From a virus, in IMG/VR virus record IMGVR_UViG_3300037137_000877, positions 1 to 23,676 of that record: DNA of 23,676 nt; one strand, written 5' to 3'. Below the pieces are notes generated by a model, which saw only the letters and a program-made list of their open reading frames with translations, was not told where the DNA came from and searched no databases. Both the position numbers and the translations under genes were made by a program. Below, one piece after another: positions 8,559 to 22,971 of the stretch. Position 1 is the stretch's first letter. Every line of letters begins with the position of its first letter.

Positions 8559-8588
8559 CACAGCCTCCTGGGTAAACTCCTTTGTTTT

Positions 8589-8631
8589 AAAAACTGGGGG
8601 CGAAGGAAAGGAGTAAACCCCGCGCCCCAGT
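8589..8631 (-). terminator. Probable intrinsic terminator after the head operon
   Basis: On the minus strand, arm ACTGGGG (8631-8625) pairs with CCCCAGT (8599-8593). Two further CG pairs form across a one-base bulge, enclosing a loop of about 20 bases, and five T residues follow (8593-8589). It lies about 40 bases past the capsid gene stop and before the first glycan gene. The T tract is short, so termination may be partial. If it works, the glycan genes need read-through or their own promoter, which I could not identify in the 8559-8588 gap. Confidence 0.5.
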
Positions 8632-8669
8632 CAACCCCACCTAATCAGGAAAACCTAGGAAAAACCCAA

Positions 8670-9714: not shown

Positions 9715-9733
9715 ATATCGCCTAGAGCGATAT
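9715..9733. promoter_or_regulatory. Operator-like palindrome, site 1 (capsid gene leader)
   Basis: ATATCGC-N5-GCGATAT, perfect 7-bp arms. On the minus strand it lies exactly ten bases after a seven-T run (9749-9743) that directly follows the stop of the decoration gene. It is about 75 bases upstream of the capsid ATG. It matches three other sites in the window in motif, spacer length and surroundings. Confidence 0.65.
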
Positions 9734-9749
9734 CAAAATGGTAAAAAAA

Positions 9750-10106
9750 TTAGGCTGGAACGTCTCCGTGTAAATCGATTTCCAGCGTGGTGTCTCCCGT
9801 AAGACCTGCCGTAAGAGCTCGTCCGCACAACGTATTACCAGATGCTGTCGAGGTAACCGCAGCGGTCCCCGCTTTATAATAAACCTTGTCTCCGGCGTCG
9901 AATGTGACGCCAGTGTCCTTCGGCACGACGATCTTCTCGCAAGAGTAGATCAGCGCGGTATCCACCCCAACCGCAGCGGTCTCGACGATGACTCCGACAG
10001 TGTCATGAATCTTGATCATCTGCCCGGCGGTGTATGTCGCCGTTGGAGCCGTCACCTTGAACGACTTGAAGTTCGGGCTTCTTAATTTAAGAGCTGTTGC
10101 ACTCAT
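9750..10106 (-). CDS. DUF2190-type capsid decoration (cement) protein
   Basis: 118 residues. The pattern is that of DUF2190 proteins: an opening KVTAPTATYTAGQMIKI, then GVIVETAAVGVDTALIYS, VVPKDTGVTFDAGDKVYY and a closing GNTLCGRALTAGLTGDTTLE with an IDLHGD end. Members of this family are small beta-barrel proteins that sit on capsids as cement or decoration proteins. It lies between the protease/scaffold gene and the capsid gene, the usual place. The ribosome binding site and start (GGAGGTTAAACAATG) are identical for 15 bases to those of the capsid gene, which suggests matched high translation. Confidence 0.8.
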   Translation of the reverse strand: MSATALKLRSPNFKSFKVTAPTATYTAGQMIKIHDTVGVIVETAAVGVDTALIYSCEKIVVPKDTGVTFDAGDKVYYKAGTAAVTSTASGNTLCGRALTAGLTGDTTLEIDLHGDVPA

Positions 10107-10179
10107 TGTTTAACCTCCGTTTGAATGTTTCGTTCTTGATTTGATCTCCTGTCCTCTTTCTCCCGAGGGTGGGTGAACA

Positions 10180-10195
10180 CGGCCTCGTTAGGCCG
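10180..10195 (-). other. Hairpin around the stop codon of the protease/scaffold gene
   Basis: CGGCCT-AACG-AGGCCG: a perfect 6-bp GC-rich stem with a four-base loop on the minus strand. The TAA stop of the protease/scaffold gene begins in the stem and ends in the loop. No T tract follows, so it is not a standard terminator. It could slow ribosomes, protect the upstream message or be incidental. Confidence 0.4.
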
Positions 10196-10781
10196 GAATG
10201 AAATCGTTCTTCTTGGGGTCTTCGTAGGTGCTCACACCTTCGTCTCCCCCGGTTGCAGCGCCTTGTCCGTCAGCAGCCGGAACTCCAGCGCCGCCTTCTT
10301 CGCCTTCTTTGGGTTTCAGGGCTGCGGTTGTGACCTTGGCCTCAAACCCGTAAGTTTTGCCCATCTCGACGTAGTCTTTCGCCGTCGTGTCCACGAACTT
10401 CTCGACATCGGCCTTGAACTCGTCGCCTGTTTTCGTAGACTTAAAATTCCTCAAATTCTTTTCAGCGAACGCCGTGAACTTCGGCTCAAGTTTGCGTTCG
10501 GTGGCGATTCCCGCCAAGACCTCCTTAACGGTCCCGGCATTGGCCTTTTCCGCGAGCGTGGCCTTCTCGCCTTCAAGCGTGGTGATCTTGCCCTGGAGTT
10601 TCGCGTTTTCTTCTCGGCTCTCTCCCAGTTTGGTCTCGATGCGTTTGGCCCATTCATATTCGGTTTGCTTGGCCTTCTTCGCGGGTTCGGACGCGACAAT
10701 CTCCTCTTCTGAAAAAAGATCGTTTATCTTCACTCCCGCTTCAGTGATTGCTGCTTTGATTTGCTCTTTTGTTAATGCCAT
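10188..10781 (-). CDS. Nested in-frame scaffolding protein
   Basis: Internal ATG at codon 196 of the protease/scaffold gene, preceded by GGGAGGGG and a seven-base spacer, as good as the ribosome binding sites of whole genes here. It would give a 197-residue protein (MALTKEQIKAAITEAGVK onward) made only of the coiled-coil scaffold and acidic/Gly-rich tail. MALTKEQ-type N-termini are common in stand-alone phage scaffold proteins. Lambda Nu3 and Mu gpZ are made in the same way from within protease genes. Existence as a separate product is inferred. Confidence 0.6.
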   Translation of the reverse strand: MALTKEQIKAAITEAGVKINDLFSEEEIVASEPAKKAKQTEYEWAKRIETKLGESREENAKLQGKITTLEGEKATLAEKANAGTVKEVLAGIATERKLEPKFTAFAEKNLRNFKSTKTGDEFKADVEKFVDTTAKDYVEMGKTYGFEAKVTTAALKPKEGEEGGAGVPAADGQGAATGGDEGVSTYEDPKKNDFIPA

Positions 10782-11366
10782 TTGTTGACCCCTCCCATAT
10801 TTCTGGGTGAACATCTGCAAAGCTGCTTGCAGAGTAGCCCCTGGCATGCCTGGAGTGTCGATTGTATGGTTGCTCAACGCTATGCCAGTAATTTGTGATA
10901 AATTGACGACACCCATTGTGCCGTCCTGTCCTTCTTCGGCTTCGAAGTCCCCCTCAATTGAGGCGATATCAAGATCATGGCCCCGGAACTCGGGCCGTAT
11001 ATAAACCGCAGCAAGCGTGTGCAGCTTGTCTTGGATGGTTTTTAAGGTCTTCCCTACAACCTCGCCGACGACTTCGCGGTTAGTGTGCGCGTTAGTGTTT
11101 GGATCGTGGCGGTTGAAAGTTAGAAGACCGTATTTAATTCGGTTGAACATTTGGACAATGATGTCCTTCGCGTATTTCAGAATCTTCATGCCGTGGCCCA
11201 GCACGTTCGCGTTCGCCTCGCCCTCGTGCCCAAGTGAAAATACCCGGAATTCGGGGTGAGCGTCCTTGAGCCGAATCCGTTGGACGATTTCCGCAGGGAT
11301 CATCTCGAGCACCTCGCTTTCCGGCATCTGCTGAAGCTGACAACTAATCCATATCTTTTCTTTCAT
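10188..11366 (-). CDS. Probable prohead protease fused to scaffold
   Basis: 392 residues. Residues 1 to about 190 have a protease-like composition with candidate catalytic positions: LGHEGE near 46-50, RHDPNTNAH at 87-95 and ASIEGDF at 135-141. The last resembles the Ser region of prohead proteases. I cannot assign the catalytic triad with certainty. Residues about 196-392 are Lys/Glu/Ala-rich with a long predicted coiled coil (SREENAKLQGKITTLEGEKA) and a flexible Gly/Pro-rich tail, typical of scaffolding proteins. Protease plus scaffold in one frame is well known, as in lambda C/Nu3 and Mu I/Z. An operator-like palindrome sits just upstream of its ribosome binding site. Confidence 0.7.
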   Translation of the reverse strand: MKEKIWISCQLQQMPESEVLEMIPAEIVQRIRLKDAHPEFRVFSLGHEGEANANVLGHGMKILKYAKDIIVQMFNRIKYGLLTFNRHDPNTNAHTNREVVGEVVGKTLKTIQDKLHTLAAVYIRPEFRGHDLDIASIEGDFEAEEGQDGTMGVVNLSQITGIALSNHTIDTPGMPGATLQAALQMFTQKYGRGQQMALTKEQIKAAITEAGVKINDLFSEEEIVASEPAKKAKQTEYEWAKRIETKLGESREENAKLQGKITTLEGEKATLAEKANAGTVKEVLAGIATERKLEPKFTAFAEKNLRNFKSTKTGDEFKADVEKFVDTTAKDYVEMGKTYGFEAKVTTAALKPKEGEEGGAGVPAADGQGAATGGDEGVSTYEDPKKNDFIPA

Positions 11367-11379
11367 TGGTCCTGCCCCC

Positions 11380-11396
11380 TATCGCCTCTTGCGATA
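11380..11396. promoter_or_regulatory. Operator-like palindrome, site 2 (protease/scaffold leader)
   Basis: TATCGC-CTCTT-GCGATA on the plus strand, perfect 6-bp arms. On the minus strand it lies ten bases after an eight-T run (11414-11407) that directly follows a TAA stop. It ends only 13 bases before the ATG at 11366, touching the ribosome binding site region. A promoter would have to overlap it. Confidence 0.65.
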
Positions 11397-11414
11397 TCTT
11401 TTGGTTAAAAAAAA

Positions 11415-11636
11415 TTACTTGCCGGATTTCTTATACCCTGACTCCTGCGTTTCATAGTGATGAACCCCAAGATATCTCTCAAGCTCAGCTTGGTTCCTTT
11501 CCAGTTTCACAAATCGATTGATGTTCGATGACTCCCTAGCTCTAAAATACTGATCTGTTGCCTTGATGTTTTCATTCAAGGCCAAGACCGATATCAATAA
11601 AACAAGCAGGACAATTAAGCAAACCCACATCAACAT
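11415..11636 (-). CDS. Small single-pass membrane protein
   Basis: 73 residues. Residues 3-20 form one hydrophobic helix (MWVCLIVLLVLLISVLAL), followed by a charged, probably helical tail (RFVKLERNQAELERYL). The start has GGGAGGTG four bases upstream and overlaps the stop of the gene before it by seven bases. Membrane helix plus coiled-coil-like tail is seen in phage spanin or holin accessory proteins, but no lysis gene is nearby. Function unknown. Confidence 0.6.
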   Translation of the reverse strand: MLMWVCLIVLLVLLISVLALNENIKATDQYFRARESSNINRFVKLERNQAELERYLGVHHYETQESGYKKSGK

Positions 11637-11875
11637 GATTCACCTCCCAATATTCTTTGGATCTTCTCCATCTTGATCTCAAACGCTATTTCATGACAAA
11701 GGCCATAACAAGTCGCTAAGTTGCCCTGGTGCCGTCCAAAACTCATCCATGTCTTGTGTTCGCCAGACTCTTCATACTTAGTCCCGATAAACACGGCGGG
11801 CGAACACCGCTTTAGCAGTTCCGTTATTAGGTCTTGCGTCGGATAAACGGCTAAATCATTAACCACATTCTGCAT
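11630..11875 (-). CDS. Small protein of unknown function in head operon
   Basis: 81 residues from the ATG at 11875 (MQNVVNDLAVYPTQDLITEL), which has AGGA eight bases upstream. A longer frame to 11938 would overlap the upstream gene by about 80 bases without a better ribosome binding site. It contains KRCSPAVFIGTKYEESGEHK and several cysteines (ATCYGLCHE), but no motif I can name. It overlaps its neighbours on both sides by a few bases, in keeping with a coupled row of three small genes between portal and protease. Confidence 0.6.
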   Translation of the reverse strand: MQNVVNDLAVYPTQDLITELLKRCSPAVFIGTKYEESGEHKTWMSFGRHQGNLATCYGLCHEIAFEIKMEKIQRILGGESC

Positions 11876-12050
11876 TTTCTTTTTCCTGTCGGTTAAGCTG
11901 AAAATCCTTGTCCAGTTGCTGCCAGTTATGTCGCGCACCGAAGTCCCACCTAATATCCGCGATCGTTAAGGAATAAACTGCCACGATCGATCCTTCACAA
12001 TTATGCGCCACCCCCTGCACCCGCGCCCCCACGTCCTCCTTGGTCAGCAT
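11859..12050 (-). CDS. Small protein of unknown function overlapping the portal gene
   Basis: 63 residues. It starts inside the portal gene in another frame, with AGGAGG six bases before the ATG, one of the best ribosome binding sites in the window. The sequence (EDVGARVQGVAHNCEGSIVA, then VRWDFG-like IRWDFGARHNWQQLDKDFQL) has the look of a small beta-barrel, SH3-like protein with a conserved WDFG-x-RH stretch. Part of a chain of three overlapping small genes. Function unknown. Confidence 0.6.
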   Translation of the reverse strand: MLTKEDVGARVQGVAHNCEGSIVAVYSLTIADIRWDFGARHNWQQLDKDFQLNRQEKENAECG

Positions 12051-13362
12051 TTGCGTCCTCCTGCATTTTCATTTGGTCAAGAATTTTTTGCGCTTCTTTC
12101 TCGGCGTTCTCCTTGATGCGCTTGGGATCCGCGTTCGGAATCATCGAAAGCATATAGTCCAGGTCCACCACGTTCGCTTGGAAAAGAGGCAGCCATACTT
12201 CAGTCAGCGCCTTGATCTTCTCCGCAGTGATCTGCGGGATATCGCAACTCACTACGTCCTCTTTGAACGTCGAGCCGAAGGCAATATTCGATATTTTCAT
12301 CGCGAGACTAAACACCTCTTCATACGCCCCTATCCACGTCTTTCTCTCGCGGTTCGTGCTGGCGATAATCATTTCGAACATATCCGTGCTCGTCGAACGG
12401 TTCGACATCAAGTCCGGCAGGCCCAGGAAGTGAACCGGGATCCCCACTACCCCGCTGATGACTTTACAGATATTAACGATTTCCTTGGTAAGGCATTCCG
12501 CCCCAGCCGCGTCTGCTCCGACCATAGCGAACTGAGTCTTTGAAGTAACCAGAAATTTCCCGATTTTCCAGTTCATGTCCTTCAAGAGTTTATAAAGTTC
12601 AGTCGCGGTGTTCTTATCCTCGCAGTTGAAATGCGGCGTGGGTGAGGCGAAAAGGTTATTGATCGACCGCAGATCTTTCATTGCCTTGTCCAGATCCTCG
12701 AGCTTGCGAAGAATAGTCGCGGTCTTTGGCATAAGATCGTTGACCTTATCCACCCGCCCGGCGAATTTCTTGTAGACAAACTCGCCGGCGTTAAGCGTTA
12801 CATCCTGGCCCTTGAGTTTATAAACGACCTTTTCGTATTTCAAATAATCGACTGCGTTCGCAACAACCTTGTAATGGTTTGTGTTGTAGGAAAGGAACCT
12901 TAAGTCGATCTGCTTTTTTTCAATGTTCGGGATTAACTTAAACAACACCCGGCCTTCGAGCTCAGCTTCTTTCGCGTATTCCTGGACAGCCTCTTCATCG
13001 AGGTTGTTATGCTCAATGAACTGCTGGATAAACTCCTGCTCCTTTTGATACTTGCCTGTGGGCTCGAGCACCGCCTTGCCTGTGATGGGATCGATCTCAA
13101 TGACCTGGATCCCGTTGCCGATAATGAACGCCGAACGGCAATCGATAATCGTTCGCGCCTGGTCGCAGCCCCAAGAAGCTTCGCCTTCATATTTACGACT
13201 GAGCTCAGTAATGGCTTCGTCAAAGGCGGGGTAATTATTCCCCGTATTCGCGCTCGTGCTTGAGTCTCGCTGCCCCGTCATGAACGTCTCCCAGTCCAAG
13301 ACGAGCTGCTGCACTCTTAAATTCTTGTGCCTCATCTGCTGAAACTTAGCTAACCATCCCAT
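12001..13362 (-). CDS. Portal protein
   Basis: 453 residues. The portal forms the dodecameric ring at one capsid vertex through which DNA is packaged. Evidence is position directly after the large terminase, a fitting size, and a typical layout: an alpha-rich N-terminus (NLRVQQLVLDWETFMTGQRD), an early strand-rich wing with CRSAFIIGNGIQVIEIDP, a central FRFLS-like beta region, the stretch ICKVISGVVGIPVHFLGLPD with MSNRSTSTDMFEMI, and a helical stem ending in a Gly/Ala-rich tail. The conserved GIP-H-LG segment near the stem is characteristic of phage portals. The ATG is preceded by AAGGA, which overlaps the terminase stop. Its last 50 bases overlap the next small gene. Confidence 0.85.
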   Translation of the reverse strand: MGWLAKFQQMRHKNLRVQQLVLDWETFMTGQRDSSTSANTGNNYPAFDEAITELSRKYEGEASWGCDQARTIIDCRSAFIIGNGIQVIEIDPITGKAVLEPTGKYQKEQEFIQQFIEHNNLDEEAVQEYAKEAELEGRVLFKLIPNIEKKQIDLRFLSYNTNHYKVVANAVDYLKYEKVVYKLKGQDVTLNAGEFVYKKFAGRVDKVNDLMPKTATILRKLEDLDKAMKDLRSINNLFASPTPHFNCEDKNTATELYKLLKDMNWKIGKFLVTSKTQFAMVGADAAGAECLTKEIVNICKVISGVVGIPVHFLGLPDLMSNRSTSTDMFEMIIASTNRERKTWIGAYEEVFSLAMKISNIAFGSTFKEDVVSCDIPQITAEKIKALTEVWLPLFQANVVDLDYMLSMIPNADPKRIKENAEKEAQKILDQMKMQEDANADQGGRGGAGAGGGA

Positions 13363-13368
13363 AGGCTT

Positions 13369-14799
13369 TTATCCTTTCGCAAAAATATCGAAATCGTGTG
13401 TAGATGAAAAAGCGACTGCCCCGCCTGTCGCGGCCTTAATAGCAAACCCGAGCGCATCAACATCATCATCAATATCCGATCCCTTGCCGTCAAAATTAAC
13501 TAAATGATCAACCAGCGCCGCCACTCTCGGATTGCCTAACTTAAACCTGATTGTCCCATTTTCAATAAGGTGAGCGAATTCATTGACGCGGATGACCTTA
13601 TCTGTCGTGGTTTGCTCATCCTCAATCGGCGGGTACGTTTTCTGCTCTCTCCCCACCTCTTCAATCCGCTGCTTAATGGCATCACCCGCATTGTTCTTTT
13701 CTAATTTAATGCTGAAATATTTCTTAGCCGCATGTTGAGCAGATACGTGCTGAGCGAAAGCATAGACACTTAACTTCTCAAGAAAAACGTCATCGACATA
13801 AAGGTACCCTTCCCAATCCCGCACCACATCAACCAGGGCGGTATAATCAGCACTCGTCTTTAGTGACGTGGCGGTATCTATGCCGCCATGCCTCTTATGC
13901 TCAAGCGGAAGAGTCTTGTACCACTTAATCCATTCACGATGAATTACGGCAGTCTCGAGATCCATCGGATTGCCATCAAACAGCGACGCCCATGCGCGGG
14001 AACCTATATCATGCTTAATTTGAGCGAGAGATTCCTTGGGATATCTTTCGGGCCAAAGAGCATCGCCGGGCGCACGTCCTAGCGGATCACTCTCTTTGGC
14101 TATTGCTGGGAGATTGATGATCATCCAATCTTTCTCGTTCTGCAGGATTTGACCAGCCAGGTCTTTCTGATGCCACCGGGCCATCATAATGACGATCGAT
14201 GCGTTGGGCTCGAGTCTCGTGCGTGCGACACTCTTATACCAATCATAAAGTCGGTCACGATATGCTTCCGATTCCGCCTCTTCTGCGTTCTTGATAGGAT
14301 CGTCAATAATGAAAATGTCAGCGCCATGTCCTGTCGCACTACCCCCCACCCCTACCGAGATCATTCCCCCTCGGTGCCCCTGGATCCGCCAGGAATCGAC
14401 TGAGCGGACATCTTTCTCTGTCGTAACTTTAAAAATCTCTCGATAAATTTCACCTTCGACAATATCTCGGGTACGCCGAGACCATTCGTTTGATAATAAT
14501 TCGGAATAGGATGCGTGGATGATTCGTTTATCGGGATTTCTACCGAGGAACCATGCAGGGAAATTGCACGAAACAAGCTCACTCTTGCCATGACGAGGAG
14601 CAAAAAAAATCATTAACTTCTTAATCCCGCCCGCTGCGACACGCTCGAGGATATCAGTGAGATATTTCAAATGGCGGGCCTCCTGGTAGTGCGGGCTTAT
14701 GAGTAAGCAGAACTCAAGCAACTTTAATCTGCCTAATCTAAATTTGGCTTCCAGGTATAGGTTGCGCGTTTCTTTTGATAATTCTTTCGCAGAAATCAA
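13369..14799 (-). CDS. terL: Terminase large subunit
   Basis: 476 residues from a TTG at 14799; no ATG or GTG lies nearby. The ATPase motor has Walker A APRHGKSE (67-74) and Walker B DIFIIDDP (161-168), with MMARWHQKDLAG (205-216) as the expected coupling region. The C-terminal RNase H-like nuclease has acidic positions at GGIDTA (D308), YVDDVF (336-337) and the DIDDDVDAL cluster (442-450). Together these give the motor and headful or site-specific cutting activities that package DNA into the prohead through the portal. The start lies 62 bases inside the small subunit gene, so translation is likely coupled. The true start could be a little further downstream. Confidence 0.93.
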   Translation of the reverse strand: MISAKELSKETRNLYLEAKFRLGRLKLLEFCLLISPHYQEARHLKYLTDILERVAAGGIKKLMIFFAPRHGKSELVSCNFPAWFLGRNPDKRIIHASYSELLSNEWSRRTRDIVEGEIYREIFKVTTEKDVRSVDSWRIQGHRGGMISVGVGGSATGHGADIFIIDDPIKNAEEAESEAYRDRLYDWYKSVARTRLEPNASIVIMMARWHQKDLAGQILQNEKDWMIINLPAIAKESDPLGRAPGDALWPERYPKESLAQIKHDIGSRAWASLFDGNPMDLETAVIHREWIKWYKTLPLEHKRHGGIDTATSLKTSADYTALVDVVRDWEGYLYVDDVFLEKLSVYAFAQHVSAQHAAKKYFSIKLEKNNAGDAIKQRIEEVGREQKTYPPIEDEQTTTDKVIRVNEFAHLIENGTIRFKLGNPRVAALVDHLVNFDGKGSDIDDDVDALGFAIKAATGGAVAFSSTHDFDIFAKG

Positions 14800-15334
14800 T
14801 GAGATCTTTTTCTCCCCAATTATTCAAAATGCTTGTTTGAATAGGACCCCCGTCTTTTCCGGTATGCTCAAATTTTTCTGTTATCAATCGCAAATGCTTC
14901 GCTAGATTTTCGAGCGCTTTGTTTTTGTCCCAAAACTTTATCTTCTGGGTGATCCCCTTCTGCTCTCGCGTCTTGCCATTTTTATCAAATTCAATAAACA
15001 CTTCGATAGAAGAAATTGCTTTTGCAAGTCCATCAGGAAGGTCTTTGACATTTAATAGGTTCCCGTTTCCATCATATGCTTGACGAGGATCAATCGTGGC
15101 AAGGGCGAGAAGTTCGGTGAGGATTAAATCGGCAGTAATTAAACAGCGTTGGGCTTGTTGCTCGAGAAGGCGGTTTATTTCATTTTGAATACCAAGTTTT
15201 ACCAAGAGCTCTGGGCCCTGCTGATTTGCTGAATTCTCAGCATAACCCGCTCGAATTGCTGCCTGTGTAGCATTTTTATCTTTTATATATTCAAGGCAAA
15301 AATGTTTTTGCTTATAGGTAAGACTTTCGGACAT
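14738..15334 (-). CDS. terS: Terminase small subunit
   Basis: 198 residues. The N-terminus (LTYKQKHFCLEYIKDKNATQ, then AAIRAGYAENSANQQGPELL) is the classic helix-turn-helix DNA-recognition domain of Terminase_2 small subunits. A helical oligomerisation part follows, then a C-terminal region that would contact the large subunit. It binds the packaging site on phage DNA and directs the large subunit, the next gene. The ribosome binding site is GAGGTG four bases before the ATG. An operator-like palindrome lies just upstream, making this a plausible start of the late operon. Confidence 0.9.
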   Translation of the reverse strand: MSESLTYKQKHFCLEYIKDKNATQAAIRAGYAENSANQQGPELLVKLGIQNEINRLLEQQAQRCLITADLILTELLALATIDPRQAYDGNGNLLNVKDLPDGLAKAISSIEVFIEFDKNGKTREQKGITQKIKFWDKNKALENLAKHLRLITEKFEHTGKDGGPIQTSILNNWGEKDLIDFCERIIKRNAQPIPGSQI

Positions 15335-15356
15335 ATCGCACCTCTTGATTTGACGC

Positions 15357-15373
15357 TATCACGCTGTGCGATA
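15357..15373. promoter_or_regulatory. Operator-like palindrome, site 3 (terminase leader)
   Basis: TATCAC-GCTGT-GCGATA on the plus strand; one arm carries A where the others have G. Read on the minus strand (TATCGC...GTGATA) the change is a G-U pair in RNA. The T run upstream is only four long and nine bases away, so this copy is the most divergent. It ends about 23 bases before the small terminase ATG. Confidence 0.55.
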
Positions 15374-15409
15374 TATGCAAGGAAAATTCTTGTCTTCTTT
15401 AAACGCCCC

Positions 15410-15613
15410 CTATCGTTTTGAAATGCAGCAGTATTCAAATCCTTCATGCGTTGCGAACCTGAGATAATATTTTTTGTTTTTAATACGGTTGATCTCGCAC
15501 ATACTCCAGGCGAGATATGAGAGGTCGCCATACTGAGAATCGATAATCAAATCCTTTGATCTAAGAACGGTAACATCTTTCTTGTTTCCTTGAATCGATA
15601 AGGGAAGACTCAT
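15410..15613 (-). CDS. Small protein of unknown function
   Basis: 67 residues (MSLPLSIQGNKKDVTVLRSK to FEYCCISKR). A very good ribosome binding site, AAGGAGG, stands five bases before the ATG, and it follows the RusA-like gene by 11 bases. Composition is ordinary and slightly basic. I recognise no motif. It is the last gene before the terminase leader. Confidence 0.6.
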   Translation of the reverse strand: MSLPLSIQGNKKDVTVLRSKDLIIDSQYGDLSYLAWSMCEINRIKNKKYYLRFATHEGFEYCCISKR

Positions 15614-15624
15614 ATGCCCTCCTT

Positions 15625-16014
15625 TTAAAGATACAGCGCCATAATTTTAACTCTTGGTTTTTCGCCGGCGATACAATAGCGCTTCTCGACGGTTAATTTA
15701 AAAACCTGTGAATCGTCACGATAAATTGATCCGGTCAATGCGTCTTTGATGTTTTTGGCCAGGTTATCGGTGTCGGGTTTTTTGATGTGATAACTGATTT
15801 TTTTCGGCAGATATTTTGGACGGTCAAGAATGAACTCGAGCTGTAACATTACTGGTCCGATAGGCAAGGCATGAGGACGGACTGCGATTGCATAGAGTTT
15901 AACAAAGCCTTGCCATTTCCGGTCTTCGCTGTGGGTGAATCGCATCCACCCGCGTTGTCCTGGTCTGTGCCAGGGGACCGCTTTGCCTGGTATTTCAAAG
16001 GTTATCCAGTTCAT
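15625..16014 (-). CDS. rusA: RusA-like Holliday junction resolvase
   Basis: 129 residues, the usual RusA size. It carries the family signature: KPDTDNLAK (79-87), an Asp at 91 and YRDDSQV (98-104), which supply the acidic metal-binding residues, with basic N-terminal residues (AVPWHRPGQRGW) for DNA contact. RusA is a dimeric nuclease that cuts Holliday junctions symmetrically, clearing recombination intermediates or branched DNA before packaging. Its place at the end of the recombination/replication region and just before terminase fits. The ribosome binding site is poor, unlike most neighbours. Confidence 0.9.
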   Translation of the reverse strand: MNWITFEIPGKAVPWHRPGQRGWMRFTHSEDRKWQGFVKLYAIAVRPHALPIGPVMLQLEFILDRPKYLPKKISYHIKKPDTDNLAKNIKDALTGSIYRDDSQVFKLTVEKRYCIAGEKPRVKIMALYL

Positions 16015-16042
16015 TATTTTAATGCCGCTAATTTCGCCAATT

Positions 16043-16651
16043 TTAGAAGTTTTTACCTAAAGCCTGGTCAATTTCTGCTTCTGAAAAGTCAAGGTTAATG
16101 AGATGTGTTTTTAAGGTTTGGTTGTCTTTAAAAATGATTTGGAGGTTTTTGAGGTTTTCCGGGTTTAGGTAGTTATTTCGCTCTTCAGAGGTCATGTTAA
16201 TGGCCTCTTTTTTATTTATTTCTTTATTTATTTCTTTATTGCTATAAGCCCCCCCACTACCCTCCCTATTAGGAGGGGTATTCTTTTTATGCCCCCAACG
16301 CTTCAAAGCGCCAAGTTTACCGGCCTCAATAAAGCTGTTTCTTTGCTCTAAATATTCATTAACCCGGTCGCTCCAAAAGCCCTTGTTATCGGACTTGAAT
16401 AACCCGCAATTTTCGGAGGTACAAAAGGCTATGATTTCGATGAGTTTTTCGGGGTTTAATTTCTCATCTTCCGCAATGCCTGGGACATCAATGAACTCGA
16501 TTTTTCCGTTATTGGAAACCAGGATTTCGATAAGCATCCAATAGACTCCATATCCTTCAGAATTGTATTTTCTACGAAGTCGGCGGACCTTTAAATCATT
16601 CCGAGCGTTAATGTCATGCTTGAGGTAAAAGGTTATTGAGGATTCTTTCAT
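16043..16651 (-). CDS. DUF4373-type phage replication protein
   Basis: 202 residues. The N-terminus (ITFYLKHDINARNDLKVRRL, then YNSEGYGVYWMLIEILVSNN) matches the DUF4373/Lin1244-type N-terminal domain of phage replisome organisers, a winged-helix fold that binds the phage origin. A lysine/asparagine-rich linker with an NKEINKEINKKE repeat follows at about 138-150. The C-terminal part (EERNNYLNPENLKNLQII to EAEIDQALGKNF) may recruit a helicase or its loader. Strong ribosome binding site (AGGAGG). No DnaC-like or helicase gene lies in the window, so the host replisome is presumably used, or those genes lie elsewhere. Confidence 0.75.
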   Translation of the reverse strand: MKESSITFYLKHDINARNDLKVRRLRRKYNSEGYGVYWMLIEILVSNNGKIEFIDVPGIAEDEKLNPEKLIEIIAFCTSENCGLFKSDNKGFWSDRVNEYLEQRNSFIEAGKLGALKRWGHKKNTPPNREGSGGAYSNKEINKEINKKEAINMTSEERNNYLNPENLKNLQIIFKDNQTLKTHLINLDFSEAEIDQALGKNF

Positions 16652-16684
16652 CGATCCTCCTATAAAAAAACATGATTTACTTAA

Positions 16685-17020
16685 TTAAGATTTACGAAAC
16701 CGCGCATGGTCCTCGGTTGTTCGACCGATGACGCATTCGATAATATCGCCCTTGTGATTGATTTTCTTTTTGCGGATATTTTTCATCTCATCAACCCATG
16801 ACTCTTCGGCCTCTTCAAACTTCATCATCGCGGTCTGCATCATTGCCTTGGCCTTGATGAGGTCTTCTGATGCAACATAAAGCGGTGTATCGACCATCGT
16901 GGGGAAAAGCTCGAGGTTGCCTTTTGAATCGACCCTTGCTTTGCTGCGAGAATGACCCTGGTCTTCGCCGGGATCGGATTGGTCTTTATTAATTACTGGA
17001 ACGGATGATTTTTTAGTCAT
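16685..17020 (-). CDS. Protein of unknown function (111 aa)
   Basis: The N-terminal 35 residues are polar and probably disordered (SDPGEDQGHSRSKARVDSKG). The middle is helical (LIKAKAMMQTAMMKFEEAEE) and the end basic (KKINHKGDIIECVIGRTTED). AAAGGA stands eight bases before the ATG. It lies between an unknown gene and the replication protein gene. I recognise no domain. Confidence 0.7.
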   Translation of the reverse strand: MTKKSSVPVINKDQSDPGEDQGHSRSKARVDSKGNLELFPTMVDTPLYVASEDLIKAKAMMQTAMMKFEEAEESWVDEMKNIRKKKINHKGDIIECVIGRTTEDHARFRKS

Positions 17021-17048
17021 GAGTTAATTCCTTTCTTTTGTCCTGCGG

Positions 17049-17303
17049 TTAAATTATTGTCCACACATCTTCTTTGAGCTTCCCAAACCCACGGAATATC
17101 TTCTCGTGATCTTCAAGCCTCCGGATCCTCGGGGGGATTTCTTCAGCCAAGGCGCGGGCGTCACGGTCCGCACGGTTAGAAAAATTATCTACTCCCCAGC
17201 GAAGAACTTCTGAGGTTTTGCAGTAGACCCTGGCTTTAATGAACAGATAAAGTTGTTCTTTTCTGCTCAATGTCGCCGTGAATATATCGGATTGATATAT
17301 CAT
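17049..17303 (-). CDS. Protein of unknown function (84 aa)
   Basis: Its ATG overlaps the TAA of the ATPase gene by one base (TAATG), a strong sign of translational coupling and of a possible shared job. The sequence is helical and basic (CKTSEVLRWGVDNFSNRADR, then EIPPRIRRLEDHEKIFRGFG). It may be a small partner or DNA-binding adaptor of the ATPase, but nothing in it identifies a family. Confidence 0.7.
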   Translation of the reverse strand: MIYQSDIFTATLSRKEQLYLFIKARVYCKTSEVLRWGVDNFSNRADRDARALAEEIPPRIRRLEDHEKIFRGFGKLKEDVWTII

Positions 17304-18670
17304 TACTTTTCCGCTGGCGTTAATGATTCCTCTTCCGAATGTTCGCCTTGCTCTTTTTCGATTTTCTTTCCGTCGATTGAATCGATTTCACCATTGACGA
17401 TATAGATGCCTTCTTGCCCGGACTCGTCGGTCTTTTCGAACCAGACTTGGTACCCTTCTTCCTGGGCAATGGCGCAGATATCCGCAAACCCGGTTTTATC
17501 AAGCAAGGATCCGTCCCGGATAAGCAGGACCTTGATTGATGGGCTCATTGCCATGGCCATTTTAACGAATATGCGGATCTGGCGGCCACTGCTGGCGACC
17601 TCAATCGGCTTACCATTAAAAATGACCTGGTCTTCTGTCAGTGATAACCCTTCGACCGGGAACTTGCACGCTCCGATCCTGGTCTGTTTATCCTGCTCAA
17701 TGCGTTCGAGCTTGGTGGTTAGGGCATCGCTTTCCTGGCGGGCCTTCTCAGCCTCTTTAACGGCCTTGCGGTAACGAATCGCCTGGCGGATAACCTTGTT
17801 CTGGTCCTCAACCTTCTCGATATCAGCCTGGGCAGCGAGGATCTGTTCTTGAGTGATCTTCTCAGGAAGAGTTGCGCTCTTCTCATCGCGGACCTGTTCG
17901 TGCTCTTTGATTTGGTATATTAACGAATCTTTTTCTTTCTTTAATGCCTCGAGTTCGCGATCGATCTCGTCAATTCGAGTCTGCCGGCGAAATATCCCGG
18001 TATTGAGAGAAGCGATATACCTCTCGGCCTTCTCGAAAACTTCCTTTTTCTCCCTCAGACGATTTAGGTCGTTTAGCTTGTCCCTAAATGTGATCTCTTC
18101 GTCCGGAGTGCCCGGGTCCGGCTCGGACATCACATTGATCTGCGCGATCGCGGCCTTAACGCGATCATTAACATCTTTGCGCTCGTCACGGATCGCTAGT
18201 TCCTCCTGCTTCAAATCCGTCAAGTCTAGGCCGACAAGTTTGGCCAAAACATCACGGAACTTTCGGGGATCGTCGCGCAGAAGAAGGAAGAGCTTCATGG
18301 GATCCACCATTTTCCCCGTGAGTTTATTCAGGAAATCCTGCGGACTCGATTTAATATCCTTCTTCCCATCATCGCGGATTGAGTAGACCTGAATAGCGTC
18401 GCCTTTTTCCGTCCATCGTTTACGGATTTTGATTTCGCCTAGATCGAGTGTCGCATCGGCCCGCTCTTCGCCCTGGCGAATAGGCATTCTGAGCGTGAGC
18501 CCCTCGAGTAAAGATTGAATTACGTCAAGGACATTTGACTTCCCCGCCTCGTTCGCTCCGGATAAAACAACCACATTCTTCTCGGGCGTGATACGAACCG
18601 CCCGGAGATTTGTTACGTTTTGAGCCGTCAGTTCGACTATTGTGAGCGGCCCTTTGATTTCGTTTTGCAT
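17303..18670 (-). CDS. SbcC/RecF-like AAA ATPase
   Basis: 455 residues. The N-terminal strand and Walker A (VVVLSGANEAGKSNVLDV, GKS at 43-45) are those of the SMC/SbcC/RecF class. A middle part of about 150-330 is charged and coiled coil (EKAERYIASLNTGIFRRQTR; EADIDRELEAL-like repeats). The C-terminal part has the SSGRQIRIFVKMAMAM signature-like segment and IKVLLIRDGSLLD (around 376-388), a divergent Walker B/D-loop. It is shorter than SbcC or Rad50 and lacks a zinc hook. No SbcD-like nuclease gene is adjacent, so the partner may be a host protein, one of the two phage nucleases here, or the small coupled gene downstream. Strong ribosome binding site (AAGGAG). Confidence 0.85.
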   Translation of the reverse strand: MQNEIKGPLTIVELTAQNVTNLRAVRITPEKNVVVLSGANEAGKSNVLDVIQSLLEGLTLRMPIRQGEERADATLDLGEIKIRKRWTEKGDAIQVYSIRDDGKKDIKSSPQDFLNKLTGKMVDPMKLFLLLRDDPRKFRDVLAKLVGLDLTDLKQEELAIRDERKDVNDRVKAAIAQINVMSEPDPGTPDEEITFRDKLNDLNRLREKKEVFEKAERYIASLNTGIFRRQTRIDEIDRELEALKKEKDSLIYQIKEHEQVRDEKSATLPEKITQEQILAAQADIEKVEDQNKVIRQAIRYRKAVKEAEKARQESDALTTKLERIEQDKQTRIGACKFPVEGLSLTEDQVIFNGKPIEVASSGRQIRIFVKMAMAMSPSIKVLLIRDGSLLDKTGFADICAIAQEEGYQVWFEKTDESGQEGIYIVNGEIDSIDGKKIEKEQGEHSEEESLTPAEK

Positions 18671-18697
18671 TGCACTTCTCCTTTTTTGTTGTGGGGT

Positions 18698-19063
18698 TTA
18701 ATTGATCCCTTTGATTTCCTCGAACATATCCTTGATCTGCTCGCGCTGGCCTAGAGTTAATGTGCGGGCGAACTTGCCTTTTGTTTCGTCAAGCGCGGCA
18801 GTTTGTTCTGCGGACAATTTGCCCAGGCTTTTTTGAACACACAAGAATTGCCGCATCGTCATAACATCTTTATCCGAGATCGATGCGCCCGTCGGTTTTT
18901 CTTTGACAGTGTAATTGTATTTCTTTTTCCGTTCCTTTTTCTTTGGTTCCGCGTCGTCAACCACATCGGTATCCGTTGAATCCATTGCTTCAAACTCCTG
19001 AATATCCACACCGTTTTCATGGGCGTAAATAATCAGGTCGATGATCTTTTTTGTGATTAACAT
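18698..19063 (-). CDS. Protein of unknown function (121 aa)
   Basis: The N-terminal helix (MLITKKIIDLIIYAHENGVD) is followed by an acidic stretch, then a strongly basic run (EPKKKERKKKYNY), then a helical C-terminus (KDVMTMRQFLCVQKSLGKLS to QREQIKDMFEEIKG). The ribosome binding site is GGAGG four bases before the ATG, which overlaps the stop of a tiny upstream frame. Acidic-basic patterning suggests nucleic-acid or protein binding, but no family is recognised. It immediately precedes the SbcC-like ATPase gene. Confidence 0.7.
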   Translation of the reverse strand: MLITKKIIDLIIYAHENGVDIQEFEAMDSTDTDVVDDAEPKKKERKKKYNYTVKEKPTGASISDKDVMTMRQFLCVQKSLGKLSAEQTAALDETKGKFARTLTLGQREQIKDMFEEIKGIN

Positions 19064-19158
19064 AAATCCTCCTGTTTTAAAGGATCGGGCTGGCCGGTGG
19101 GGTATAAGCCCCGCTCACCAGGGCTCCCGTCCTCCGGTTGCTTTCCTTGCCAGCCCAT
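19057..19158 (-). CDS. Very small putative protein (33 aa)
   Basis: MGWQGKQPEDGSPGERGLYP, then TGQPDPLKQEDLC, stop. AAGGA lies six bases before the ATG, and the TAA stop overlaps the start of the next gene, as in a coupled row. Gly/Pro-rich and without a membrane helix. The DNA also contains GGGCTGGC and its inverted copy about 50 bases apart (see the hairpin entry), so the signal could instead be RNA structure. Weak call. Confidence 0.4.
   Translation of the reverse strand: MGWQGKQPEDGSPGERGLYPTGQPDPLKQEDLC
19087..19154 (-). other. Possible structured RNA or hairpin in a small-gene region
   Basis: On the minus strand GGGCTGGC and its inverted copy GCCAGCCC flank an inner hairpin (GGTG-AGC-GGGG-CTTATA-CCCC-ACC). 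The block is GC-rich and lies just upstream of the ATG at 19063. It does not match any riboswitch I can name. It overlaps the 33-residue frame, so it may be coding sequence with incidental pairing. Confidence 0.35.
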
Positions 19159-19161
19159 CCG

Positions 19162-19368
19162 TTATCCTTTCTTCTGTTCTTGGCGCAACTCGTATTTTTG
19201 GAATGCTCTTAATTGCCCCGGCATTAGTAAGGTTATTTTTCCTATCTTCGGCCCTCGACGGATTATAGTCATCCCGTTATAGTTTGGGTTACAAACATAC
19301 CAAGGACGAGCGCCTGGCATTTTAAAATTAATAACCCAATCACCCTTTTCGAGTTCAGCGATTCTCAT
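19162..19368 (-). CDS. Protein of unknown function (68 aa)
   Basis: From the ATG at 19368 (MRIAELEKGDWVINFKMPGA); a GTG two codons earlier is possible. Strand-rich (PWYVCNPNYNGMTIIRRGPK, then IGKITLLMPGQLRAF) with a basic C-terminus. The start lies within the last 15 bases of the small gene before it. No known motif. One of a row of tiny early genes. Confidence 0.55.
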   Translation of the reverse strand: MRIAELEKGDWVINFKMPGARPWYVCNPNYNGMTIIRRGPKIGKITLLMPGQLRAFQKYELRQEQKKG

Positions 19369-19492
19369 TCCCACCCCAATTCTGCGGTTCCCCCGTTATG
19401 GCGAAACGCCAAATCCGACACATTTCCGCCCTACACATTCCATCAATTTGCTTTTTTAGTTCCGGTGTTAACGTGTATGTTTTTTCTTCCAT
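19355..19492 (-). CDS. Small phage protein (45 aa)
   Basis: MEEKTYTLTPELKKQIDGMC, then RAEMCRIWRFAITGEPQNW, ending GGNENR. AAGGA lies five bases before the ATG. The pattern of an Ile/Met helix, then M-R-x-WRFA-x-G-P, is one I know from short phage proteins that usually continue into a longer C-terminus (FxKV-type). Here the frame ends early, so it may be a shortened relative. Function unknown. Confidence 0.6.
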   Translation of the reverse strand: MEEKTYTLTPELKKQIDGMCRAEMCRIWRFAITGEPQNWGGNENR

Positions 19493-19494
19493 AA

Positions 19495-19725
19495 TTATCC
19501 TTTCCGAAAAACATCGGCGTATCTGCACGACGAGAAATGAGAAACCATAGTCTTTGCATCGAAATATGGTTTCGCAATCCCGTCAAACAAATACTCAATG
19601 TCCTCGTCGTAATCGACAGGGATATTTTTCGATGAGTGCGTTGCGGCCCAGAAGATCTTCGCCTTACATAATCTGCATTGCGAAAAAGTCTTGGGCGAGT
19701 TTTTGGTTAAACGGATAATCGGCAT
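19495..19725 (-). CDS. Small zinc-ribbon-like protein
   Basis: 76 residues from the ATG at 19725, with AAGGGA five bases upstream that includes the stop of the nuclease gene. A longer frame starts inside that gene. CRLC (two cysteines two residues apart), the stretch FWAATHSSKNIPVDYDEDIE and a distal HFSSC fit a small zinc-binding protein of a type common in phage early regions. Role unknown; might bind nucleic acid. Confidence 0.65.
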   Translation of the reverse strand: MPIIRLTKNSPKTFSQCRLCKAKIFWAATHSSKNIPVDYDEDIEYLFDGIAKPYFDAKTMVSHFSSCRYADVFRKG

Positions 19726-19727
19726 AT

Positions 19728-20420
19728 TTATCCCTTGGTTTTTAATACACAATACTCACATTCGAGATTTATTGCTGGCCTCTCGCCGCGCATAATCTCG
19801 CACGCCTTGGCAATCGTAGCCTTTGCCCGGTCGATATCGCACTTCAATTCAAAAACCTTGACCTTGAAAATAGTGACCATTTCGTCGGGCGCGGATTTGT
19901 GATCGATATAATTGACCTCATCCGCCACTAGACTCGGCCACATATATGCCAAAAACGCCCGGTTGTTGATCTTGAATCCGTTCGAGGCGAAAAGCAGATT
20001 GTAGATATCCATCTGCAATTGATAATATTCGCTCCCGTCGGTTTCGGGCATCGACCCCTTAGTTTTGAAATCAAAAGGATCGACCGACTCGTCCGGCTGG
20101 ACAAGCAGGTCATCGATCGCGCCGCAGACTTCGACGTTTAATTTTTCGTCGGAATATCTCGGAGCAGTTTTCCAGTATTGCCACTTCTTCACCTTCGCGG
20201 CATCCTTAAAAAGCACTCCGGGAACGAGGCCCTTGACCACCGGGGGAAGATCGCCGCGATAATGGCTGAAATACTGCTTCATCATCCTGTCCATCCCCCC
20301 CGGCAAAGATGGGAAGATTCCCCGAGGTCGTGCGATGCCGTTGACGTTTGCATCAAAAAAGCATCGAGGACAACTTTGGAGCAAGCTCAACTTTGAGGGG
20401 CTTAGGGTTATTTTCTCCAT
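19728..20420 (-). CDS. Second PD-(D/E)XK nuclease with paired cysteines
   Basis: 230 residues from the ATG at 20420, with AAGGAG ten bases upstream. A longer frame to 20705 adds an Arg/Ser-rich stretch that is only the other-frame image of the upstream gene. Catalytic core: EVCGAIDDL (D103), FDFKTKG (D117-x-K119) and QMDIY (Q136 to Y140). The N-terminus has LSPSKLSLLQSCPRC with C17 and C20, and the C-terminus ECEYC with C221 and C224, the four-cysteine layout of Cas4/AddB-type iron-sulfur nucleases. Expected activity is resection or end-trimming of DNA, working with the annealing-type protein just upstream. No cas genes are near, so it is not a CRISPR adaptation protein here. Confidence 0.8.
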   Translation of the reverse strand: MEKITLSPSKLSLLQSCPRCFFDANVNGIARPRGIFPSLPGGMDRMMKQYFSHYRGDLPPVVKGLVPGVLFKDAAKVKKWQYWKTAPRYSDEKLNVEVCGAIDDLLVQPDESVDPFDFKTKGSMPETDGSEYYQLQMDIYNLLFASNGFKINNRAFLAYMWPSLVADEVNYIDHKSAPDEMVTIFKVKVFELKCDIDRAKATIAKACEIMRGERPAINLECEYCVLKTKG

Positions 20421-20424
20421 GGGG

Positions 20425-21432
20425 TTATTTCTCCTTCTGCGGCACTGCCTGTTGTGCTCCCGGATGCGTGTGAGTGGCCGGGTCCCCGGTCTTGACGTTT
20501 GCATCCCAGCTTTTTTCGATGTCGGTTTCGGCCTGGACGTGCGCGGCCCCATCCGTCGCCGGGTTTTCTTTTGCGCTGATGATCTCGGCCCACGTTGCCT
20601 CACCGTCTTTGATTGAGTTGTAGACGGCCTGTAAATCAACCAAATCCGCCGGGATGATTTGCTCGATTGGTTTCCCAAGGTATTTCTCGAGATCGGATGG
20701 GACAATCCCTATCTTGGCAAAATAATCCATGAGTTTTCGTTTGCCAGCTTCCGGGTCTTGCTTGACCCCTGATCTCATGGTCTCTCGACACTTATCCATC
20801 GCCTCATCGACGATATGCGCCGGAATTAGACGCAGGCCGTTGTTGCGGATCGCCTTTGAGACGTTCGCGGCTTGTTTGATCTTGACCTCATCCTCGGTCG
20901 CAATGACTATGGCGACTTTCTCGCCCCGGCTATTCACGCGCTCGGAGATCACGTCGCGGTCATTAGCGAATTTCCTCTCAACTGTTTTGTCAATGATGAT
21001 GTCCTCACCGTAGGGGATGTTTGCTTGCAGGTCGTAGCAGATCACCCGAACGATGCGGTTTCGCGGGGAATCGAAAATGATCTGCTGAATGATTTTGACG
21101 TTTCGCCAGTTGCGGATCATCTCCTCCGCGAACCTGATTGATGGGCCTTCTAGCGTTGTCTTGCCGATGGGTTTTTTGTAAATGGCCTTCTCCGCAAACT
21201 TCGGGTTCTGGCAAGCCCGAAGAATACCGACGCGGGAATCTTCTTCGTTCCTTTGGTTCATTTGCGCCAGGGCAAACCCGGCTTTGACTTCGGCTTCGGT
21301 CTGCGCAGAAACCATCTCGGCGGCGGTTGACCCGCTCTGGGTCATTGACCGATCCCCCATGCCCTCTCTAAGCGTCGTCAGATTTGACGGCGCTTGCGAG
21401 GCTGGCAAGGATGTCTTGTTTGGATTTTCCAT
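20425..21432 (-). CDS. Probable single-strand annealing/recombination protein
   Basis: 335 residues. The N-terminal half has the phage pattern GKTTLEGPSIRFAEEMIRNW, then IVRVICYDLQANIPYGEDII. The next part has IRNNGLRLIPAHIVDEAMDK and the segment IGIVPSDLEKYLGKP, ending IKDGEATWAEII. These resemble a broad family of phage proteins usually found beside exonucleases and annotated as recombination-associated. I could not place it firmly in RecT, Erf or Sak4. The C-terminus (about 290-335) is Thr/His/Gln-rich and probably disordered, as in annealing proteins. It sits between two nuclease genes, the usual exonuclease-plus-annealase arrangement. Strong ribosome binding site (AAGGAG). Confidence 0.65.
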   Translation of the reverse strand: MENPNKTSLPASQAPSNLTTLREGMGDRSMTQSGSTAAEMVSAQTEAEVKAGFALAQMNQRNEEDSRVGILRACQNPKFAEKAIYKKPIGKTTLEGPSIRFAEEMIRNWRNVKIIQQIIFDSPRNRIVRVICYDLQANIPYGEDIIIDKTVERKFANDRDVISERVNSRGEKVAIVIATEDEVKIKQAANVSKAIRNNGLRLIPAHIVDEAMDKCRETMRSGVKQDPEAGKRKLMDYFAKIGIVPSDLEKYLGKPIEQIIPADLVDLQAVYNSIKDGEATWAEIISAKENPATDGAAHVQAETDIEKSWDANVKTGDPATHTHPGAQQAVPQKEK

Positions 21433-21465
21433 TTTCCTTCTCCTTTTTTGGTGTTTGTTGTTGGG

Positions 21466-21960
21466 TTACAATTTCCTGCCATCAAATATGATTTTTTCTT
21501 CAGGAACAGGTTTTCCGTTCTCAAACAACTGATGATATTTCTCTCCGGCGAAAGCCATCAACCTGTTGGGGCGATTGTCATCTTTCTCGCCCAGGTGATG
21601 GACGCTCTCTCCTCTGCGCAAAAATCTTCCTATTTGCTTTTCTACGACGAGACGATGTTCCAACACATAACCGCAGTATTTCTGACTTCCGGGATAATTC
21701 CTATCTCGGATTTCAATGTATCCAGCACTATGTTTTCTCCGTCCGCCTTTCCAGTTGTGATTTTTTGGTCCAGTCATGTTTGGGATTTTTTTTCCTTTAT
21801 TCGGAGCCGGGTGAGATAGCACCCCACACCTCCTCGAGCAAAACTTGTTGTAATATGTAAAGAAAGTTTTTCCGCAATGTGGGCAGAGAACTTCCTTCAT
21901 ATATCGTCGCTTCCCTCCTGAGATAAAAAAAACACCGTCCTGTCGTAATCTTCTGCCCAT
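21466..21960 (-). CDS. Free-standing HNH endonuclease
   Basis: 164 residues, with GGAGG seven bases before the ATG. A zinc finger at the N-terminus (C26, C29, C41, C45) is followed by a NUMOD3-like GPKNHNWKGG (64-73), and an HNH core follows with YVLEHRLVVEKQIGRFLRRG, then GESVHHLGEKDDNRPNRL (HH at 121-122, N129, N132). It lies between a nuclease gene (two bases away) and the recombination-protein gene (33 bases). It shares the zinc finger plus GxKxxxWxGG plan with the HNH gene at 3444-4067. Most likely a homing endonuclease that entered the early operon. Confidence 0.8.
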   Translation of the reverse strand: MGRRLRQDGVFFISGGKRRYMKEVLCPHCGKTFFTYYNKFCSRRCGVLSHPAPNKGKKIPNMTGPKNHNWKGGRRKHSAGYIEIRDRNYPGSQKYCGYVLEHRLVVEKQIGRFLRRGESVHHLGEKDDNRPNRLMAFAGEKYHQLFENGKPVPEEKIIFDGRKL

Positions 21961-21962
21961 GC

Positions 21963-22925
21963 TTAAGCCTCCAGCGTTTTTTTAAGATTAGATAAAATCG
22001 TTCCCTTATCTAAAAACTTCTCATCTTTTAGATTTGGGGTTTGCTTGATTGTCGCGCCTCGGATAGAATTGAAATATTTGCACGTTCCCTGAGCGGCAAA
22101 CCCGCAGTATTCACGATTACAAAGAAAGTCCAGAGGACTCGCCGGGGCAAAAACCCCGGCCTTAATGATCTTGCACGCCTGATCGAAAATCCTGAACGCT
22201 ACGGCAAAATCGTCCGTCGTTCGACGTGAATAATTGGTGACGCAAAATGCAGCGCGGTTCTTTGTGCCTTTGATGATACTATCTTGGGCGACAAAATCAG
22301 GGACCTTAGTTTTTCCCGACGCCAGCCATTCATAAAGAGCATAAAAAGTATACTGATTACTACGATCAACTTCCTGCTGGCCCAGGTTAGTCTTCCGGGT
22401 TTTCGTGTCGCGGATGATGTTGCCCTGGATAGGGATATCGCCCCATTGACCGTCGGGTATTTTCTTGAACTCTTCACAATCAATTGCGCCCGCAAAATCG
22501 AAATCGTAGCCCTGGGCCTCAATCACGAATTTCTTTTCGACCGAAATAGGCTCGATCTTCGGCGCGCATTCGTAGTGATACGCTTTCGAGCATTCGATTG
22601 TCTGATCCATCGCCAGGTCTTTTGATTTCTGCAAGCCCTGGAACATTTCCTCATCGCTAAGAACAACCGCAGTTTCGTTCCATGCGCGGATGAAATTATC
22701 ACGAGCCATATCCGTCACAACATCGCGGGGAAGAAGTATTCCCCGGTCGATTTTGTTCTGTAGGTTCTGCGCGTTCGTTGAGTGCGTTCCCGTACCGATA
22801 ACGAGCGGGGTTGTCTGCGGTTCTCTCTCCCCGTTCAAAATCACGCGGGAGAATTTATACCCGCATCGGAGAAGGAGAGAAATGCTTGATTGGTGTAGCT
22901 GTGGTTTTTTGTTTTCAGGTTCCAT
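21963..22925 (-). CDS. Cas4/RecB-like PD-(D/E)XK nuclease with Fe-S cysteines
   Basis: 320 residues. Core motifs: H48 in GTGTHS, D149 in GAIDCEEF, D173-x-K175 in IIRDTKTR, and Q191 to Y195 in NQYTFYALY. Cysteines at C21, C269, C274 and C282 follow the one-plus-three pattern of AddB and Cas4, where they bind a 4Fe-4S cluster. Expected role: 5'-to-3' or bidirectional resection to make single strands for the annealing protein downstream. Starts at an ATG with AGGGG five bases upstream, immediately after a palindromic element, so it may be under that element's control. An HNH gene follows. Its role relative to the second, smaller nuclease is unclear. Confidence 0.85.
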   Translation of the reverse strand: MEPENKKPQLHQSSISLLLRCGYKFSRVILNGEREPQTTPLVIGTGTHSTNAQNLQNKIDRGILLPRDVVTDMARDNFIRAWNETAVVLSDEEMFQGLQKSKDLAMDQTIECSKAYHYECAPKIEPISVEKKFVIEAQGYDFDFAGAIDCEEFKKIPDGQWGDIPIQGNIIRDTKTRKTNLGQQEVDRSNQYTFYALYEWLASGKTKVPDFVAQDSIIKGTKNRAAFCVTNYSRRTTDDFAVAFRIFDQACKIIKAGVFAPASPLDFLCNREYCGFAAQGTCKYFNSIRGATIKQTPNLKDEKFLDKGTILSNLKKTLEA

Positions 22926-22934
22926 TTAATCCCC

Positions 22935-22951
22935 TATCACTTAGGGCGATA
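22935..22951. promoter_or_regulatory. Operator-like palindrome, site 4 (nuclease leader)
   Basis: TATCAC-TTAGG-GCGATA on the plus strand. On the minus strand it lies ten bases after an eight-T run (22969-22962) which starts two bases after a TAA stop. The palindrome ends ten bases before the ATG at 22925, right against the AGGGG ribosome binding site. Same layout as site 2. Confidence 0.6.
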
Positions 22952-22971
22952 GTAAGTTGATAAAAAAAATA

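Follow-up and report, generated by a model that had tools for sequence, protein, structure and literature searches.

Operator-like palindromes preceded by T-tracts in four intergenic leaders of an uncultured phage

Four exact copies of the palindrome TATCGC-N5-GYGATA, spanning 13 kb, are found on the coding (minus) strand of an uncultured phage. All lie in intergenic leaders, and coding-strand T-tracts of 7, 8, 4 and 8 T end 10, 10, 9 and 10 nt upstream of sites 1 to 4, respectively. The DNA that was analysed, referred to here as the window, is the complete 23,676-base virus record. The pattern is solid as sequence and appears to be private to one phage, and the mechanism proposed for it is hypothetical. 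The sites are fairly likely to be operators of one dimeric HTH regulator. We suggest, at about even odds, that they are dispersed operators for an Xre/CI-type regulator of this kind encoded off the contig, and that they act mainly as roadblocks.

The minus strand carries all genes from 1591 to 23658. These include glycosyltransferase-like genes, a replication/recombination block with an exonuclease-like gene at its end, and the following genes:

8670-9641, minus strand, major capsid (Pfam PF25209)
9750-10106, minus strand, head decoration protein
10188-11366, minus strand, putative scaffold/protease, named from position alone
12001-13362, minus strand, portal-like
13369-14799, minus strand, large terminase
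14738-15334, minus strand, small terminase (TerS), phrog_51
21963-22925, minus strand, exonuclease-like gene, weak match to exonuclease phrog_1218

The preliminary description of this DNA placed the sites in front of capsid, protease/scaffold, small terminase and nuclease genes. The capsid and terminase names hold, but the protease/scaffold is a reading from position and the nuclease is a weak exonuclease match in PHROG. The product of 10188-11366 is listed in PHROG as 'unknown function' and has no match in Pfam. Three small ORFs without Pfam match lie between the portal and scaffold genes (11415-12050, minus strand), unlike in the related L009 and C79, where these two genes are nearly adjacent.

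The four sites, all on the minus strand, are:

Site 1, 9716..9732, minus strand, TATCGC-TCTAG-GCGATA, with 7-bp arms at 9715-9733; the capsid ATG is 74 nt downstream
Site 2, 11380..11396, minus strand, TATCGC-AAGAG-GCGATA; the ATG of the scaffold/protease candidate is 13 nt downstream
Site 3, 15357..15373, minus strand, TATCGC-ACAGC-GTGATA; the small terminase ATG is 22 nt downstream
Site 4, 22935..22951, minus strand, TATCGC-CCTAA-GTGATA; the ATG of the exonuclease-like gene is 9 nt downstream

The upstream half TATCGC is invariant and the downstream half is GCGATA at sites 1 and 2 or GTGATA at sites 3 and 4. The five inner bases differ at every site. Conservation of the arms, with a spacer and flanks that differ, means that the copies did not arise by recent duplication and that it is the arm bases that appear to be read. 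Site 2 adjoins a Shine-Dalgarno-like GGGGG/AGG run and site 4 adjoins GGGGA. The positions of the four palindromes, the five-base spacer of differing sequence and the arms of six or seven bases had all been described before, and four exact matches bear this out, the seven-base arms being those of site 1. Sites 3 and 4 had been written as TATCAC...GCGATA; since every gene between 1591 and 23658 lies on the minus strand, they become TATCGC-N5-GTGATA. No one-mismatch copy occurs in the window, where the next-best matches have two mismatches, and a control with the reversed pattern gave no match there. Many matches inside genes, which would speak against a control site, were not seen; the genes of the window hold neither exact nor one-mismatch copies.

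By our own gene calls, the gaps between genes make up 4.8% of 1591-23658 and wholly intergenic 17-bp placements account for 3.6%. As had been claimed, every site is in a short non-coding leader (4/4), an outcome with a probability of about 2e-6 at random placement. Repetition alone is only moderately surprising. Some gapped hexamer palindrome reached at least four copies in 55 of 1155 order-2 Markov sequences, in a test that counted any gapped hexamer palindrome and allowed one mismatch. The significance of the pattern lies in repetition, location and T-tract taken together. The T-tracts are:

Site 1, 9743..9749, minus strand, T7, immediately behind the decoration-protein TAA, with its end 10 nt upstream of the palindrome
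Site 2, 11407..11414, minus strand, T8, following the stop codon of the upstream gene, with its end 10 nt upstream
Site 3, 15383..15386, minus strand, T4, a short, weak version, ending 9 nt upstream
Site 4, 22962..22969, minus strand, T8, shortly behind the stop codon of the upstream gene, with its end 10 nt upstream

These tracts were missed when the palindromes were first seen. At sites 1, 2 and 4 the start of the T7-T8 tract coincides with or adjoins the preceding gene's stop codon. The window has eight minus-strand runs of at least seven T, four of which are intergenic, and three of those four are the tracts of sites 1, 2 and 4. Random placement of four sites in intergenic space put at least three of them equally far from a T7+ tract in about 1 of 100,000 draws. 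A chance repeat, of the kind seen in 55 of the 1155 random sequences, is a very improbable explanation given the intergenic position of all four sites (about 2e-6) and the shared distance of three of them from a T7+ tract (about 1e-5). The 10-nt stretch between T-tract and palindrome is not conserved among the sites. Sites 2 and 3 have no hairpin before the T-tract, and sites 1 and 4 have a weak one; that of site 4 has the form TCGCCG...CGGTGA, just before the T8 tract. The palindrome itself was rejected as a coding-strand terminator because the T-run is upstream of it and not downstream.

The sites fit the general form of Xre/CI-type HTH operators, a dyad in which conserved arms lie about 11 bp apart, centre to centre, around a free spacer. 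Each subunit would contact one TATCGC half-site, leaving the five middle bases unread. Use of the motif at operators is seen elsewhere. Of the first eight matches in IMG/VR to the exact motif after a T-tract, seven lie at a small cro-like HTH gene that has a divergent CI-like gene next to it. Firmicutes-like prophages (L016-L022), which are unrelated to the window phage, carry the same palindrome class at CI/Cro-type operators, with the same half-site, 17-bp length and free five-base spacer. Their sites are at the cro-like gene beside the CI gene, whereas those of the window are scattered over structural and replication genes. In several of these prophages the operator TATCGCTTTTAGCGATA is inside the 3' end of the cro-like gene, where it encodes the peptide IAFSD, 8 nt after a T8 tract. 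In an Omnitrophota genome TATCAC-N5-GTGATA occurs beside a TTGACA box just upstream of the gene for a 239-aa protein, the N-terminus of which, by reading, resembles an Xre-type HTH. The presence of one palindrome class both at CI/Cro-type operators and beside the Omnitrophota HTH gene makes a dimeric HTH regulator the likely reader of the sites. The composite pattern of T-tract and palindrome was found at 63 places in IMG/VR, mostly as single sites or operator pairs, and no related phage in IMG/VR had several copies. Among 384 Omnitrophota genomes there were three matches, little above the control (one match).

Lambda operators (OL/OR) are 17 bp long with TATCAC-like half-sites and a conserved inner CCGC, and are clustered in threes beside cI. 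The window sites had been likened to them, but only a generic resemblance is left, the 17-bp length and a similar outer half-site. Unlike the lambda operators, the window sites are single, scattered and free in their inner bases, and the window has no HTH_3 match. The lack of a repressor gene in the window had been noted before, and the search for an HTH_3 domain agrees with this; in addition, ten small window proteins have no DNA-binding domain in Pfam. The contig stops at 23676, thus the repressor gene may lie just beyond its end.

How would such a regulator act? The regulator would most likely be the phage's own repressor and, when bound, would bar RNA polymerase from the capsid, scaffold/protease, terminase and exonuclease genes. 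The hypothesis is that it mainly halts elongating polymerase, as has been proposed for the stoperators of mycobacteriophages. Sites 2 and 4 are too near the start codon for a promoter downstream of them, which argues that the sites are mainly a roadblock to elongating polymerase. With a matrix modelled on E. coli promoters, no sigma-70-like promoter was found over the palindromes at a common offset, while promoters of the relatives scored clearly with the same matrix, and this favours the blocking of a passing polymerase. The T-tract 10 nt upstream would put the RNA 3' end of a stalled polymerase in a weak rU-dA hybrid and so favour release.

The main rival is ordinary promoter repression, in which a promoter lies under each site or just upstream of it, the T-tract is UP-like and the regulator blocks initiation. 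This is possible, though we give it a lower probability than the roadblock. It stays the main rival because T-tracts are placed right before TTGA promoters in the relatives, where T8+ tracts directly precede TTGACT/TTGAAA promoters. Moreover, several unrelated phage and Omnitrophota sites have the order T-tract, TTGAC(A), TATCRC-N5-GYGATA. Moderate promoter-like sequences upstream of sites 1 and 4 make such repression possible for these two; those of sites 2 and 3 are weak, and the best promoter scores are at differing offsets. The 10-nt spacer of the window sites has no TTGACA-like box, no -10 box follows the palindrome, and at sites 2 and 4 a Shine-Dalgarno-like G-run adjoins it.

A further step from the roadblock is to take T-tract and operator as one composite repressor-dependent terminator. 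The bound protein would stall polymerase exactly on the U-tract and end transcription between genes without a strong RNA hairpin. This idea is doubtful, and the uneven hairpins before the T-tract make the terminator part a hypothesis. During Pol I termination in yeast, polymerase is stopped by a roadblock protein while it is in a T-rich stretch about 15 bp upstream of the protein's site, and this stretch and an RNA hairpin drive release (PMC12366685). Pol I terminators thus have a T-rich element on the non-template strand, about 10-15 bp before a Reb1/TTF1 site (PMC12366685), and a T-tract 10 bp before the palindrome would suit such a layout. The likeness to the window is one of layout only and not of homology, as Pol I is eukaryotic and needs the RNA hairpin. 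If the composite terminator were true, it would be a bacterial counterpart in layout of the Pol I terminator.

Repeated intergenic elements are also known from other phages. The stoperators of L5 and Cluster A phages occur in many copies in short intergenic spaces genome-wide, are oriented with transcription and have been proposed to halt elongation (PMC9283540). The L5 stoperator is a 13-bp, asymmetric element bound by a repressor monomer (PMC9283540). The window sites are also repeated in short intergenic spaces (4/4, none in genes), but each is a 17-bp inverted repeat with a T-tract, and the known copies number only four. The stoperator parallel in the preliminary description therefore stands as mechanism and not as membership. 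The SPBRE of the Bacillus prophage SPbeta is a repeated 15-bp element found in many intergenic regions and bound by the master repressor MrpR, a recombinase-fold protein, with its sites in promoter regions (PMC10516654). Its sequence is unrelated to the window sites; the common trait is one repeated element in several intergenic regions. At most, the window sites work like stoperators or SPBRE, and they are members of neither family. A literature search on the conserved inverted repeats of phiC31 gave no match.

The palindromes may also be read as RNA. A TATCGC/GYGATA hairpin in the mRNA leader could be bound by a protein or could control translation or processing. The only arm base that varies changes from C to T on the downstream side and still pairs, as G-U, in the mRNA sense only, site 1 folds as a 12-pair stem (z -3.65), and sites 2 and 4 adjoin the ribosome-binding site. 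Yet the stem bases are fixed and the loops wholly different, the opposite of most RNA-protein hairpins. Sites 2 and 4 form weak hairpins (z -1.7 and -1.3), the predicted fold at site 3 leaves the palindrome unused, and the distance to the start codon varies from 9 to 74 nt. An RNA element is thus unlikely. If the elements were bound by an activator of the phage, or were promoters used by an RNA polymerase or sigma factor that it encodes, this would account for the fixed, oriented layout of T-tract, 10 nt and palindrome that always comes before a coding-strand gene. These readings are highly unlikely, as no promoter would fit downstream of sites 2 and 4, the element is absent from all fetched relatives, and no RNA polymerase gene stood out when the ORFs of C79, a near-full-length contig of a relative, were read through by eye and not by HMM. 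The activator site was rejected: with an ATG 9-13 nt after sites 2 and 4 and the adjoining G-run, a promoter cannot be accommodated ahead of the start codon.

Relatives were collected by capsid and terminase searches; these gave one contig of an Omnitrophota MAG and, beyond it, over 25 related loci. No exact copy of the motif is present in the related loci fetched, and the set is therefore taken as private to the window phage. The general layout of a T-run followed by a palindrome is not enriched in relatives either (13 T-run matches versus 16 A-run controls). The nearest relative, L041, is about 70-75% identical at the protein level across capsid, scaffold and portal. By eye, its capsid leader keeps the capsid-proximal part without T-tract and palindrome. 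Relatives encode HTH proteins. The temperate relative G001 encodes an integrase, CI (HTH and S24 peptidase) and Cro, and G010 has an integrase and a CI-like gene. The operator-like sites of G001, TTCTAA-N5-TTAGAA, are grouped at 7589-7716 in the interval from cI to cro; elsewhere there are only look-alikes with three mismatches. Temperate phages thus belong to the lineage, but scattered operators are not common to its members. The proposal that the element is a phage-wide control site thus holds for operator-like sites of one putative dimeric HTH protein scattered before genes, but conservation in related phages was not found: none of the related loci has a copy, and the operators of G001 differ and cluster at cI/cro.

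A close capsid relative was found in just one bacterial genome, an Omnitrophota MAG. On the syntenic contig from Omnitrophota, a gene for an HTH_3 protein with a fused lysozyme-like domain (Pfam) comes before the exonuclease gene:

L063 891-1613, minus strand, fusion of HTH_3 and a phage-lysozyme-like domain, directly upstream of the exonuclease gene, in an Omnitrophota-binned relative

In the window a different gene is present at this position before the exonuclease-like gene, and then the record ends. Scans gave no relatives of the exonuclease or of the ATPase-like protein, and only one distant relative of the small terminase. Annotated phages gave no nucleotide match and only one distant capsid match, in a Microcystis phage (27%).

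The arrangement of scattered sites with T-runs is unusual. To our knowledge, few phage groups have repressor sites scattered in this way. Finding them independently in phages with a loose link to Omnitrophota, an uncultured phylum, would show that such silencing has evolved more than once. Should the T-tract work as proposed, it would offer a simple and transplantable design for a regulated terminator, and would make the stoperator mechanism directly testable.

Some further features of the relatives and the window were observed. In L009 (2300-2620) and in contig C79 of G002 (11168-11293, minus strand), a T8+ tract, a TTGAAA-17-AATAAT promoter and a strong intrinsic terminator come before the small terminase gene. 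This promoter and terminator suggest a late operon opened by antitermination. A de novo search of the relatives for repeated palindromes gave one candidate, TTCCCG-N-CGGGAA in C79 (7 places), which was rejected; the places checked were inside genes and imperfect. In the window, a GC-rich hairpin with T5 behind it (CTGGGGCG...CGCCCCCAG-TTTTT) comes right after the capsid gene (8562-8669, minus strand), by eye a late-operon terminator. A 98-nt intergenic stretch at 19064-19161 (minus strand) has a strong fold (-44.4 kcal/mol, z -3.5); it has no match in Rfam and no copy among the fetched related loci, and is a possible structured RNA. An open frame at 443-1090 on the plus strand, repetitive and rich in Gly/Leu/Asp, is probably the antisense of a repeat-rich coding stretch. 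The minus-strand gene 1591-2766 contains a Ser-Pro repeat.
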